Shown here piece after piece: positions 2,234 through 63,212 of a DNA stretch of 64,000 nucleotides. Origin of the DNA: Natrinema sp. CBA1119 (GTDB lineage Archaea; Halobacteriota; Halobacteria; Halobacteriales; Natrialbaceae); NCBI RefSeq assembly GCF_002572525.1, contig NZ_PDBS01000001.1, forward strand, positions 2,604,001 through 2,668,000, read 5' to 3'. The first letter of the stretch is position 1; each line of letters starts with the position of its first letter. Both the position numbers and the translations under genes were made by a program. The notes beneath the pieces are model-generated. The model was not told where the DNA came from, did not search any database, and saw only the letters and a list, made by a program, of their open reading frames with translations.

Positions 2234-3775
2234 TTACTCCTCCGCGTCTTGCGCCCAGTCGCGCGATCGGTCGACGGCGTCCGACCAGCGGTCGTAGCGC
2301 CGATCGGCGTCGTCCCGGTCCATCTCGGGTTCGAACTCCGCGTCGACCTGCCAGTTGCTCCGCAACTCGTCGGGATCGCTCCAGTAGCCGACCGCGAGTC
2401 CGGCCGCGTAGGCCGACCCCAGCGCCGTGGTCTCGTCGACGACGGGGCGAACGATCGCCGAGCCGATGATGTCCGACTGGAGCTGACAGAGGAAGTTGTT
2501 CTTGACCGCGCCGCCGTCGACCTTCAGCGAGCGCATCTCGATACCCGAGTCGGCCTCCATCGCCTCCGCGACGTCGCGCGTCTGGTAGGCGATCGACTCG
2601 AGGGTCGCGCGAACGACGTGTTCCTTGCGAGTGCCCCGTGTCATCCCGACGATGGTGCCGCGTGCGCGCTGGTCCCAGTGGGGCGCGCCCAGTCCCGTAA
2701 AGGCGGGAACGACGTAGACGCCGTCAGTCGTGTCGACGCTGCGGGCGAGCGACGCCGTTTCGGCTGGGTCGTCGATCAGCGTCATGTCCTCGAGCCACTC
2801 GATCGCCGCGCCCGTGACGAAGATCGACCCCTCGAGCGCGTACTGAACCGCCTCACCCGAGCGCTGGAAGCCGATCGTTGTCAGCAGACCGTGATCGCTC
2901 TCGACGGCCTCGTTACCGGTGTTCATCAGGAAGAACGAGCCGGTACCGTAGGTGTTCTTCGCGTCGCCGGCGTCGAAACAGGTCTGGCCGAACAGGGCCG
3001 CCTGCTGGTCGCCCAGCGCACCCGCGACCGGAATTTCGGCCTCGAGGAACCCGTCGGGGTCAGTCGACCCGTACGTTTCGTCGTCGCTCGAGGGGCGGAC
3101 CTCGGGCAACATCGCCTCGGGGATCGAGAACTCCGCGAGGAGGTCGTCGTCCCACGCGAGCTCGTGGATGTTGTACAGCATCGTCCGCGAGGCGTTCGTG
3201 ACCTCCGTAACGTGCTCGCCCGTGAGGTTGTAGATCAACCACGAGTCGATGGTCCCGAACAGGACCTCTCCCTCTTCCGCGCGGTCGCGGATGTCCTGTG
3301 GACGGGAGCGCTCGAGTTTGATCGGATCGGCGTTGTCGAGCAGCCACTCGGCTTTCGTCGCCGAGAAGTAGGCGTCGGCCTCGAGGCCGGTCTTGTCGCG
3401 GATGGTTTCGACCATTCCGTCGTCCTCGAGCTGTTCGACGCGGTCCGTCGTCCGTCGGTCCTGCCAGACGATGGCGTTGTGGACCGGCTTTCCGGAATCG
3501 GCGTCCCACAGCAGTGTCGTCTCCCGCTGGTTAGTCACCCCGATGGCCTCGAGCCGGTCGGGACCGATGTCCGCCTGCCCGAGCGCCCGTCGGATGACCT
3601 CTTTGGTGTTTTCCCAGATTTCCATCGGGTCGTGTTCGACCCAGCCGGGTTCCGGATAGATCTGTTCGTGTTTCTGGTAGGCGTTCGCGACGACCTGCCC
3701 TTCGTGATCGAAGACGATGAAGCGGGTCCCGGTCGTTCCCTGGTCGACCGCACCGACGTACGTGGATTCTGTCAC
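2234..3775 (-). CDS. glpK: glycerol kinase
   Basis: Glycerol kinase (513 residues, normal length) phosphorylates glycerol with ATP to sn-glycerol 3-phosphate in the cytoplasm. The FGGY-kinase N-terminal phosphate loop DQGTTGTR lies at residues 11-18, the substrate region with NQRET and WQDRRT follows, and the C-terminal domain carries the signature around KVDGGAVKNNFLCQ. It heads a minus-strand operon with the membrane gene at 1157-2230 and is divergent from glpABC, which oxidises its product. Glycerol is a major carbon source for haloarchaea. A 28-base palindrome surrounds a TATA-like stretch 26-53 bases before the start and may be an operator. Confidence 0.97.
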   Translation of the reverse strand: MTESTYVGAVDQGTTGTRFIVFDHEGQVVANAYQKHEQIYPEPGWVEHDPMEIWENTKEVIRRALGQADIGPDRLEAIGVTNQRETTLLWDADSGKPVHNAIVWQDRRTTDRVEQLEDDGMVETIRDKTGLEADAYFSATKAEWLLDNADPIKLERSRPQDIRDRAEEGEVLFGTIDSWLIYNLTGEHVTEVTNASRTMLYNIHELAWDDDLLAEFSIPEAMLPEVRPSSDDETYGSTDPDGFLEAEIPVAGALGDQQAALFGQTCFDAGDAKNTYGTGSFFLMNTGNEAVESDHGLLTTIGFQRSGEAVQYALEGSIFVTGAAIEWLEDMTLIDDPAETASLARSVDTTDGVYVVPAFTGLGAPHWDQRARGTIVGMTRGTRKEHVVRATLESIAYQTRDVAEAMEADSGIEMRSLKVDGGAVKNNFLCQLQSDIIGSAIVRPVVDETTALGSAYAAGLAVGYWSDPDELRSNWQVDAEFEPEMDRDDADRRYDRWSDAVDRSRDWAQDAEE

Positions 3776-19487: not shown

Positions 19488-19838
19488 TATACAAGATTAC
19501 TCGCTGTTAATCATGACAGCGGTTTCGTCGACATCGACCCGCGACGGTGATGCTGTCGCGGGTCGCATCCGGTGTTATCAAGTCGAGAAACTTAGTCCTA
19601 AATTCCCCTGTAAGTGCTTTTAGCGGCTAATTCATCGGGAATAGTTGTGTCACTCATAGTGGACAACTAGTCTGGTAGAGCCGGAAGGTGAACGACCTAA
19701 CTGTGTCGCCATCGTTCTCTCAAAATCTTCCAAATCTGCGTCGTAGTTCTCACTGGGCGGGTCTGCGAGCATTAACCAACTCAATATTACGACCTTCTCA
19801 CTTCTCAAACTGGCTTAACTATACAGTGCCAACACGAC
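19488..19838 (-). mobile_element. decayed IS6-type insertion sequence, type A (copy 1)
   Basis: Minus-strand remnant starting at 19838 with the end sequence GGCACTGTATAGTTAAGCCA and continuing into a degraded transposase N-terminus (MLADPPSENYDADLEDF). Near 19500-19560 the catalytic segment SRVDVDETAVMINSE appears, with TAA where a Trp codon is expected. It is interrupted at 19487 by a type B element. Its intact end faces the glycosyltransferase gene at 19915. Confidence 0.75.
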
Positions 19839-21072: not shown

Positions 21073-21520
21073 AGGGCACTGTCTAGTTGAGTCAGTTTGA
21101 GAAGTGAGCAGGTCGTTGAGTTTCTTGTCCAAAGGTACTCGCAGACCTGCTCAGCGAGAGCTATGTGGCGGATTTAGAAGAATCTTGGGAGAACGAGCGG
21201 ACGGCGACACCCGTCAGGGCGTTTGCCGTCCGCCTCCACGAAACTGGTTGTTCTCTTCGGGAGATAACAACGATTTAGCCGAATTAGGCGTTGAACGCTC
21301 GCATGGGGAAGTCTGGAATTGAGTACATCGGCTAGCTGATAGTAGTTACGACCCGCCAATGGCGATGCCGTCAAGGGTCGCAGTTGATGAGACCACTGTC
21401 AAAATCAATGGCGAGTGGACTTAGTTGTACGCTGCAATAGACATCGAGACAAAGTTGATTCTCGACGCCGCGCTGTTTTGTCGGCACGGCACCCGTTGCT
21501 CGCTATGTGCCCGAATCTGT
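21073..21520 (+). mobile_element. decayed IS6-type insertion sequence, type A (copy 2)
   Basis: Begins with GGCACTGTCTAGTTGAGTCA seven bases after the glycosyltransferase stop. The degraded transposase reads, across frames, LLSESYVADLEESWENERTA, then AVRLHETGCSLREITTI, then ERSHGEVWN and SRVAVDETTVKINGEW. Several stops and frameshifts are present, and nothing after about 21520 is recognisable. The start of the next gene's open frame runs back into it. Confidence 0.8.
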
Positions 21521-27364: not shown

Positions 27365-27788
27365 GAAATCGGAGTCTCATCTGGAACTGACTTCGACGGT
27401 TCCCGAGAGATCGTATTTCTCGCGGAGACTATGCAGAAATGCAGCCGCCGGGTCAGTACCGTGCCGACCGAACAACGCGATATCGAGGATCAACTTTGTC
27501 TCGATATCTATTGTAGCGTACAACCAAGACTACTCGCTGTTGATCTTGACAGCGGTTTTGTCGACAGCGACCCGCTTCGGCTTCGCCTCAGACAGGTCGT
27601 GTCCGCTGTCAGCCAGCCGGTCTGATGGAGGTGGACGGCGAACGCCCTAACGGGCGTCGCTGTCCGCTCGTTCTCCCGAAATTCTTCTAAACCCGTGTTA
27701 TAGCTCTCGCTGAGCAAGTCTGCGAGCATTCTAACCAATTTACTCAACGACCTGCTGACTTCTCAAACTGGCTCCACTAGGCGGTGCC
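27365..27788 (-). mobile_element. decayed IS6-type insertion sequence, type A (copy 4)
   Basis: The minus-strand remnant begins at 27788 with GGCACCGCCTAGTGGAGCCA. The transposase reads MLADLLSESYNTGLEEF, then RTATPVRAFAVHLHQTG, then after an internal deletion RLADSGHDLSEAKPKRVAVD, with a TAG in place of a Trp codon, and continues to ALFGRHGTDPAAAFLHSLRE. It ends near 27365. It is the most complete of the four type A copies and is inverted relative to the copy at 22572. Confidence 0.8.
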
Positions 27789-35958: not shown

Positions 35959-35971
35959 CGGCCAATCTAGC

Positions 35972-37893: not shown

Positions 37894-39171
37894 ATGATGT
37901 ACAGCCCGCGGTACCGACTCTTCCCAGATGCCAAGCAACGCGAGGTACTGGACTGGACGCGGGATACAGTACGGCAAGTGTACAACCACGCACTCCGCGA
38001 ATTCAACCAAATTCCAGCGGACGCTGGAACGCTCCGGCAACGCGTCTGGAGTGTACGCGACACGCTCCCCGCGATAAAAGACTGGTGGTCAGACCTCAAG
38101 CAGGTTTACTCCACCGTCTTACAGAAAGCCGTCGAACGCATCCGCGATAATATCCAGAACCTCGGGAAACTCAAAGCCAAAGGCTACGACGTGGGGTCGT
38201 TGAACTGGAAAAAGCCGCGAGAGTACAGGAGTTTTACGTACCGGCAATCGGGCTTCGAACTCGACAAGAAGAGTGGCCCGAACGGACGCGGACTCCTTAT
38301 CCTCAAGAAACTCAAGGGCGAAACCCGTGAGATCCCGATTCGACTCCACCGTGACCTCCCCGACCACAAACAAATCAAAGAGGTCACGCTCAAGAAAGAA
38401 CCGACCGGCGCGTGGTATGTCTCGTTCTGCATCAAGACGGACGAACCCGAGAAACCCGCTATCGAAGATATCAATCCCGATGACACTGTGGGTCTTGACC
38501 TCGGTGTGCTCAACTTCGTTCACGACTCGGACGGTCGCTCGATCGGGCGGCTCGACTTATCTGCCGACCGCGAGCGGCTCGAACGCGAGCAACGCTCGCT
38601 CTCGCGGAAGGAGTACAAATCAAACAACTGGGAGGAGCAACGCCGCCGCGTCGCGGAAGTCCACGCGCGGATGACCGCAAAAAAGCGCGATTACAAGCAC
38701 AAGCTCGCGCACTTCTACACCACCGAATACGACGCCGTGTTCGTCGAAGACCTCAACGTCAAGGGGATGCTCGAATCCCGACAGAACGCGCGGAACAAGG
38801 CCGAAGTCGGCTGGCGAGACTTTATCACCATCCTCAAACATCACGGCAAAAAGAACGGCTGTCACGTTGTGGAAGTCGAGCCACGGGGAACTACCAAGGA
38901 GTGTGCGGCGTGTGGTGTTGAGACTCGGAAACCGATATGGGTTCGAGAGCACTCGTGTCCAGCGTGCGGATTCGAACTTGACCGAGACTGGAACGCAGCG
39001 TTGAACGTCCTCTCGCATGGCCTGAAGAAACTAGGAGTGGTTCACTCCGAAGACACGCCTGTGGAGACTGCGACCACTGTGGACTCCTTTATGGTATCTG
39101 CAAGTCGCGTCGTCGAAACAGGAAGCCCCGCCCTCATGGAGCCTGCGAAGCAGGCGAGTAGGGCGGGGTAG
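37894..39171 (+). mobile_element. tnpB: IS1341-type (IS605 family) element encoding TnpB
   Basis: Complete TnpB of 425 residues, the RNA-guided nuclease of IS200/IS605 elements; no TnpA transposase is present. The RuvC acidic triad is intact: D202 in VGLDLGVLNF, E285 in FVEDLNVKG, and D365 in FELDRDWNAALNV. The zinc ribbon has CAAC and CPAC. A TATA-like sequence precedes it. The coding end is followed at once by CCCCGCCCTC-loop-GAGTAGGGCGGGG, with an inner hairpin GCCTGC/GCAGGC, the likely end of the guide RNA scaffold. The right end abuts the stop of the gene at 39173. Confidence 0.92.
39121..39170 (+). ncRNA. putative omega-RNA scaffold 3' end
   Basis: The last 50 bases of tnpB can fold into nested stems: outer CCCCGCCC with GGGCGGGG and inner GCCTGC-GAA-GCAGGC. 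In TnpB elements the guide RNA is transcribed over the 3' end of the gene, with its scaffold ending at the element border and the guide taken from the flanking DNA. If so, the guide here begins about 39171 and reads into the stop-codon end of the minus-strand gene. Confidence 0.6.
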
Positions 39172-40689: not shown

Positions 40690-40888
40690 GCGGTGGCGCG
40701 TGCGGTGCGGCGACGAGCCCGTGGCGAGTCGTCGCTCAAATACACGCGAGGGATGAGCGAATAGTGCGGGACCAAAGGTCCCGTATACCATGCGAACGGC
40801 GCTTCGCGCCGTGAGCAGACGCAGTGAGCGAATCGGCTGGGGAGGGCGTGGCCCTTCCGTGTTGCCAGTATCAGTAGAACACGCTTCT
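40690..40888 (+). repeat. structured intergenic repeat element, copy 1
   Basis: Shares five ordered blocks with copy 2 at 62950-63095: GCGGTGGCGCG, GCGAGGGATGAGCGA, GAGCGAATCGGCTGGGGAGG, TGTTGCCA, and a final CGCTTC. Between blocks one and two lies the hairpin GCGACGA-N12-TCGTCGC (40710-40735). Copy 1 also has CGGGACC-AAA-GGTCCCG and ACGGCGC-TTC-GCGCCGT. No reading frame is conserved. The strand is given by the order of blocks. Possibly a small RNA family or a mobile non-coding repeat. Confidence 0.75.
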
Positions 40889-50194: not shown

Positions 50195-50304
50195 GTAGCG
50201 AGACGCGAAGCGTCTCGGAAATGCGAACGGGGAGTGTAACGACCCGTGAGCACGCGGAGCGAGTGCTTCCATCGAAGCGCGAAGCGCTGGAGGTGGAAGC
50301 ATGA
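50191..50304 (+). CDS. 37-residue linker ORF between leuC and leuD
   Basis: A GTG at 50191 overlaps the leuC stop (GTGA), and the frame ends in a TGA overlapping the leuD ATG (ATGA). Composition is polar. The DNA is hairpin-rich: GAGACG-CGAA-CGTCTC near 50200, GCAC...GTGC, and a longer CTTCCA...TGGAGG. It is the same double-overlap arrangement as the glpB-glpC linker, with no shared sequence. Function unknown; it could allow coupling across an expanded spacer. Confidence 0.4.
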
Positions 50305-62752: not shown

Positions 62753-63212
62753 CTTGAGCGGGGATACGCGCGCCGAACGGAAAAACGCTCTCGAGGCCTC
62801 GAACCCATCCCACCGCAGACGAGAATCGGCCGGGGGTCGGATGAAGGAGATGCATCTGCGACGGCCGACGAGGAAATAGCTCGTCGAATGATGGGCTACA
62901 CGTTTGATAGAGGGGAACCACCTATCGCTCCAGACCAGGCAACCGGCGTGCGGTGGCGCGCGCTGTCGGCCAGCCGAGTGTCAGCGAGGGTGGCCGACGA
63001 TATTGCGCGAGGGATGAGCGAGAGAGTGGAGCGATCGAGCGAATCGGCTGGGGAGGGTGTGGCTATTCCCTGTTGCCACGCTAGCAGGACGCTTCGTCTC
63101 ACACCTTCCCATCAGTACCTCTCCGTTCCATTCACGTTCTCTCCCAACAGCGATCGAGACCCCTCCACTCGTCTCGAGAGGTTTTATGTCCGAACGCGCC
63201 GGTACCCACCGT
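62753..63212. other. 460-base gap holding the second structured repeat
   Basis: This gap between the divergent Rieske and aminotransferase genes has no convincing gene. Its middle is the repeat element described separately (62950-63095). The last 100 bases before 63213 hold the aminotransferase promoter region, with TTTTATG near 63183. The frames inside are Arg/Ser-rich shadows. Confidence 0.6.
62950..63095 (+). repeat. structured intergenic repeat element, copy 2
   Basis: Blocks shared with copy 1 (40690-40888) in the same order: GCGGTGGCGCG, GCGAGGGATGAGCGA, GAGCGAATCGGCTGGGGAGG, TGTTGCCA, GCTTC. Its hairpin is GTCGGCCA-N18-TGGCCGAC (62965-62998), at the same place as the copy 1 hairpin but with different bases. 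It lacks the two extra hairpins of copy 1, so it is shorter by about 50 bases. Confidence 0.75.

Follow-up and report, generated by a model that had tools for sequence, protein, structure and literature searches.

A large dispersed family of folded intergenic repeats in Halobacteria

Two repeats in the window and the family to which they belong

Two intergenic repeats in a 64,000-nucleotide stretch of the Natrinema sp. CBA1119 genome (the window) carry a hairpin in the same place but with different paired bases, which raises the questions of whether the pairing is under selection and, if so, in which molecule. An earlier note had described the two repeats as sharing ordered sequence blocks, as holding differently paired hairpins at the same position, and as lying in unrelated contexts. 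All three descriptions agree with what we found: the blocks are in both sequences and a covariance model (R1, built from 42 short copies) places both repeats, the arms of the first hairpin (P1) can be read in each copy, and copy 1 occupies a convergent gap between a glyoxalase-like gene and a DUF5779 gene, while copy 2 occupies a divergent gap between a Rieske gene and a class-V aminotransferase gene (Table 1). The two further hairpins reported in copy 1 are also present, but they form an inserted cassette outside the core fold. Thermodynamic z scores of single-copy hairpins (about -0.4 to -2 for the sense strand, as RNA or DNA) are unremarkable; the evidence for the fold is comparative.

Table 1. 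Repeat features in the window (P0, possible closing helix; P1 and P2, hairpins)
Feature	Coordinates	Strand	Details and basis
Copy 1, whole element, core-only subfamily	40690..40881	+	Convergent gap; R1 covariance-model match, 102 bits, E 3e-27
Copy 1, conserved block 1 (GCGGTGGCGCGTGC), 5' side of possible P0 and of P0b	40690..40703	+	
Copy 1, hairpin P1	40710..40735	+	Arms GCGACGA 40710-40716 / TCGTCGC 40729-40735; sequence, P1 covariation
Copy 1, hairpin P2	40752..40834	+	GAT 40752-40754 / ATC 40832-40834; tandem G.A motifs; split by cassette
Copy 1, 58-bp two-hairpin cassette inserted in P2	40761..40818	+	Hairpins 40767-40783 and 40796-40812
Copy 1, conserved block 3, GAATCGGCTGGGGAGGGCGTGGC	40830..40852	+	
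Copy 2, whole element	62950..63091	+	Divergent gap; R1 match, 147 bits, E 6e-40
Copy 2, hairpin P1	62965..62998	+	Arms GTCGGCCA 62965-62972 / TGGCCGAC 62991-62998; sequence, covariation
Copy 2, hairpin P2	63013..63045	+	Tandem G.A motifs
Copy 2, conserved block 3, GAATCGGCTGGGGAGGGTGTGGC	63041..63063	+	
5' extension of extended subfamily (TTCAGTACAGGGGAACCACG..CTCCAGACC..CAACCGGCG)	62902..62949	+	Column conservation, 59 own copies
3' extension of extended subfamily (..CTTCGTCTCAC..CATCAG..CCATTCAC)	63088..63137	+	Column conservation, 65 own copies
Stretch missing from relative G008	62796..63154		Flanks 93% identical

Both repeats are members of a large dispersed family of folded elements of about 140 nt. 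The source genome contains 66 exact matches to the core, GAATCGGYTGGGGAGG, and 86 when one mismatch is allowed. These numbers are far above chance, as the same pattern read backwards has 0 exact matches and 3 at up to two mismatches there. Copies on the main chromosome number about 90; each of the 86 cores with no mismatch or one falls on the 4.09-Mb main contig, and the other 0.97 Mb has none (P ~1e-8, assuming an even spread). A covariance-model search of haloarchaeal genomes, of the kind that the earlier note had proposed, gave matches in 152 of 292 Halobacteria genomes and 46 of 77 genera. In a sample across the phylum, all of the positives (16/16) belong to the same order as the source. 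Exact cores are found in Natrinema, Haloterrigena, Natronococcus, Natronorubrum, Halosimplex, Halococcus, Haladaptatus, Halogranum, Halosegnis, and others. A phage search with the element gave no match, and a plasmid search gave five records only. At gathering thresholds, Rfam 15 had no match in the window or at 16 related loci (one tRNA apart), and a permissive search of copy 2 returned chance-level matches only. The haloarchaeal literature searched included work on palindrome-associated transposable elements (PATEs) and SMR inserts, with no description of the element and no match to the core string.

Anatomy, hairpin exchange, and gain and loss

Along the sense strand, the parts follow in the order block 1 (GCGGTGGCGCGYGC), P1, block 2 (GYGCGAGGGATGA), P2, block 3 (the core), GTGGC, and a tail, TTGCCACGATAGCAGGAC. 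This strand folds into the arms P1 and P2 and probably a third arm, P3. A closing helix, P0, from 5' GTGGC and 3' GCCAC is possible, with no covariation in the first alignment of the family of the window and little within that family. P2 is a succession of two-base-pair steps and tandem G.A mismatches, and candidate helices in the tail (GGGGA/TCCCC and GTGG/CCAC) were picked out by eye. In a subset of the source genome's copies, copy 2 among them, the shared sequence reaches further into the flanks, while copy 1 and some others are core-only; extended copies have weak terminal complementarity (GTTCAGTA...TACTGAAC, read by eye in one copy), and core-only copies have no inverted ends. Outside Natrialbaceae, the 3' part differs, being GCGGT-rich and then running from GGACTGAAAGGGGC to GGGGCTTTC around a long stem. 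At four loci from other haloarchaeal families (L113, L100, L160, and L128), the element continues into this second domain, whose enclosed long stem is variable. In Halosimplex pelagicum (L159), tandem repeats of the last part of the element (GGCGAGGGCTTTCATCACCTGCTGTCGACTGCGGTCG) lie downstream of the element at 3507-3650 on the minus strand.

Part-by-part comparison of 8 of the 10 loci held in common with the relative G008 (92% identity) gave 94 to 97% identity for the blocks, 71 to 83% for the flanks, and 57% for P1, against 50% for shuffled 60-mers; at these loci, P1 changes faster than the DNA around the element. At about half of the common loci P1 is wholly different with the blocks around it intact, and P1 is likewise replaced between G008 and another relative, G040, at a third locus. 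Exchange therefore affects whole hairpins, probably through conversion between copies, which is why two copies alone do not demonstrate compensatory selection. P1 sequences fall into two main families. Among one-pair steps, there are 7 compensated and 2 broken double changes, along with 9 wobble steps and 12 breaks. The 58-bp cassette of copy 1 is absent from the G008 ortholog of that copy, and a cassette of the same type in a copy in the source genome is absent from its otherwise ~98% identical G008 ortholog (L352/L341). Core lengths are quantal, with clusters near 89, 150, and 205, as a result of cassette insertion. A cassette-like hairpin, GCGAACGGGGAGTGTAACGACCCGTGAGC, also occurs at about 50223-50251 (+), in a gap without the element.

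Copies are gained and lost between relatives. G008 has an orthologous copy of copy 1, and most syntenic relatives have none in that gap; copy 2 is absent from G008, and G040 and G011 have a match to the element at the corresponding locus. At positions corresponding to 35961-35971 of the window, G008 and G040 carry a copy that the source genome and the other relatives examined do not. Of the 11 copies in a comparable 464-kb region, 10 are common with G008 (92% identical), which implies that turnover or movement is slow and which we count against the explanation favored below. The loci compared with relatives showed neither a target duplication nor a clean insertion boundary.

The folding strand and its chemistry

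The pairing of the family exceeds what shuffled alignments give. Changes on both sides of a pair occupy 147 cells in a 42-sequence alignment versus 52 after shuffling, and the score collapses when the arms are slid. Alignments of 84 copies from the source genome (265 versus 99.5 cells) and of 72 copies mostly from other families (317 versus 74 cells) agree, both being fitted to the covariance model and so biased in its favor. The earlier proposal that pairing is kept while bases change is thus borne out in many copies above shuffled and slid controls, although a large part of the change is whole-hairpin replacement. In covarying pairs, G.T combinations outnumber A.C combinations 133 to 11 (12:1), which identifies the oriented strand as the folding one, since no such asymmetry would be expected from a cruciform in double-stranded DNA. 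Conserved U.G and G.U positions are present in the alignment of the source genome's copies. The covarying helices are therefore strand specific and exceed controls, as expected of a structured RNA, and single-stranded DNA would give the same result.

The chemistry of the fold points in two directions. In covarying pairs, 14.6% of the standard cells are wobble pairs. The REP hairpins of E. coli, generally taken to be processed in single-stranded DNA form, have G.T in 3 of 190 cells (<2%; n = 41), although REPs vary less among themselves and many residues were fixed by the pattern used to collect them. This strand-specific wobble content favors RNA. Of 180 copies, 113 have a triloop at the apex of P2, 74 of them GNA; tetraloops, counted over both hairpins, are GNNA in 59 of 86 cases, only 22 of the 59 being GNRA; and the pair closing tri- and tetraloops is C-G in 111 cases and G-C in 5. 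Typical loops are thus C(GNA)G and C(GNNA)G rather than GNRA or UNCG, a repertoire that favors single-stranded DNA. DNA loops of the C(GNA)G type, d(GCGAAGC) being an example, have exceptional stability (PMC6582339; for mini-hairpins of this kind in general, see PMC10527192). The suggestion that RNA is the selected molecule accordingly fits the wobble tolerance of the element but not its loops.

Placement, comparison with known repeats, and possible explanations

None of 52 scored copies is inside a gene. Among 170 copies classified by gap, convergent gaps contain 70 and divergent gaps 24; those in same-direction gaps are co-oriented with the genes in 36 cases and anti-oriented in 40; many copies start 20 to 100 nt past a stop codon. 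Close pairs are inverted, being tail-to-tail in 19 of 19 cases in five genomes, partly outside convergent gaps and with unique spacers where these were read, while the six near pairs that were inspected in Haladaptatus and Halobium all have the head-to-head arrangement. A replication-strand bias was considered and rejected, since strands show no clustering along the chromosome and their alternation exceeds chance, an excess due at least partly to the inverted pairs. In some genera the element occurs once, in conserved gene surroundings, for example, a cobalamin gene cluster; in several genomes of one genus (L310, L312, and L316, near 1501-1615), this is a conserved antisense copy within the cobalamin biosynthesis cluster.

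The element shares features with several known repeats, and it may work like REP/BIME and PATE repeats, to which we liken it here without filing it as a member. Like the RAYT-associated REP/BIME repeats of E. coli and other enterobacteria, it is an intergenic palindrome with many main-chromosome copies, inverted pairs with short spacers, and single-strand folding. In contrast, REPs are one short hairpin with far less wobble, whereas the element spans about 140 nt with several arms and hypervariable stems and has no Y1 or RAYT gene beside its copies. No element lies within 2 kb of any of 19 Y1 (TnpA) transposase genes, and a Y1 match is missing from at least 13 genomes of the same family that carry the element. 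PATEs of Haloquadratum, with their SMR-A inserts (PMC3119063), are likewise haloarchaeal, noncoding, palindrome rich, and dispersed, and in both cases small repeats insert into palindromes, as seen here in the presence or absence of the 58-bp cassette and in the quantal lengths. The cassettes add ~58 to 61 bp, unlike the ~110-bp PATE inserts, and PATEs also occur on a virus and a plasmid (PMC10544981), whereas the element has no phage match. PATEs are too short to code and lack terminal inverted repeats and target duplications; the element is noncoding, with no duplication seen and weak ends in extended copies. The near-terminal palindromes of PATEs are related to the ends of IS605-type transposons, and the element, compared with PATEs by description, is not within 2 kb of the 19 Y1 genes. 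Haloarchaeal MITEs, which have terminal inverted repeats and a target duplication in common with a parent transposon, are also short, noncoding, and multicopy, and the extended copies resemble them in their weak terminal complementarity, but no target duplication was seen and core-only copies lack ends. With the structured RNAs of Rfam 15 the element shares covarying helices and wobble pairs but no gathering-threshold match.

The window also contains a complete IS605-type TnpB gene (OrfB_IS605, Cas12f1-like_TNB) at 37894-39171 (+), with no adjacent TnpA seen. A TnpB omega-RNA or an IS605 end was rejected as an identity for the element, as 1.5 kb separates this gene from copy 1, no element directly adjoins it, and none is near the 19 Y1 genes. 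Inverted repeat arms of 42 to 164 nt elsewhere in the window (19789-19830, 21075-21492, and 27456-27788) point to insertion-sequence copies in opposite orientations.

We favor, with slightly better than even confidence, the explanation that the element is a nonautonomous dispersed repeat of the main chromosome whose fold is kept since the folded single strand is recognized during spread or conversion. The sense strand would fold into arms, and a trans-acting factor or recombination step would recognize the folded single strand during spread or conversion of the repeat, in the manner of REP/BIME- or PATE-like elements. On this view, the fold is not kept for regulation of a neighboring gene by each copy. 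We infer that this recognition drives spread. Against this reading we count that no transposase or other factor is linked to the element, that neither clean insertion boundaries nor target duplications were seen, that phage matches are absent and plasmid matches few, unlike ordinary mobile elements, and that in some relatives a lone copy lies in a conserved context; the higher conservation of the blocks than of the flanks could also reflect a function at each locus. These last observations, together with the wobble content, the G.T excess, and the conserved U.G and G.U positions, speak for a structured RNA family in which each copy is transcribed into a functional RNA (a small RNA or a protein-binding RNA) and copy number rises by ectopic recombination. 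We regard this alternative as possible but somewhat doubtful, since no conserved TATA-like sequence was seen by eye upstream of core-only copies, orientation relative to genes is indifferent, the loops are not those typical of RNA, and P1 evolves faster than the flanks. The small RNA proposed in the earlier note thus gains no support from promoters or orientation.

Whole-hairpin replacement and the two main P1 families might instead mean that pairing is maintained by mutation rather than selection, with template switching and conversion between palindromic copies restoring the arms. This is improbable, because palindrome correction should erase the tandem G.A mismatches that recur in P1 and P2, the G.T:A.C asymmetry would be left without a reason, and compensated one-pair double changes outnumber broken ones. 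We give very little credence to a cis element of the 3' end of the upstream gene's mRNA (a terminator or stabilizer): the enrichment in convergent gaps and the many starts shortly after stop codons fit such a role, but the near-equal orientations in same-direction gaps, the copies in divergent gaps, and the tail-to-tail pairs beyond convergent gaps do not, and a 3'-untranslated-region or terminator role is unsupported by the orientation counts.

A broader proposal, which we consider rather unlikely, is that the family is an element of main chromosomes across Halobacteria in which stems turn over by exchange more rapidly than neutral DNA changes and the folded single strand is preserved. It would work through recognition by an RNA- or single-stranded-DNA-binding factor, a mechanism explained neither by a Y1 transposase nor by a known RNA family. 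That arms are swapped or mutated and yet remain paired suggests that the folded single strand is important. A family that reaches ~90 copies per genome and occurs in more than half of the sampled haloarchaeal genomes yet appears absent from Rfam also carries a caution, in that covariation among dispersed copies can arise by whole-hairpin exchange, a trap for RNA motif discovery, and it offers a testable system for the spread of palindromic repeats in archaea without an obvious transposase.
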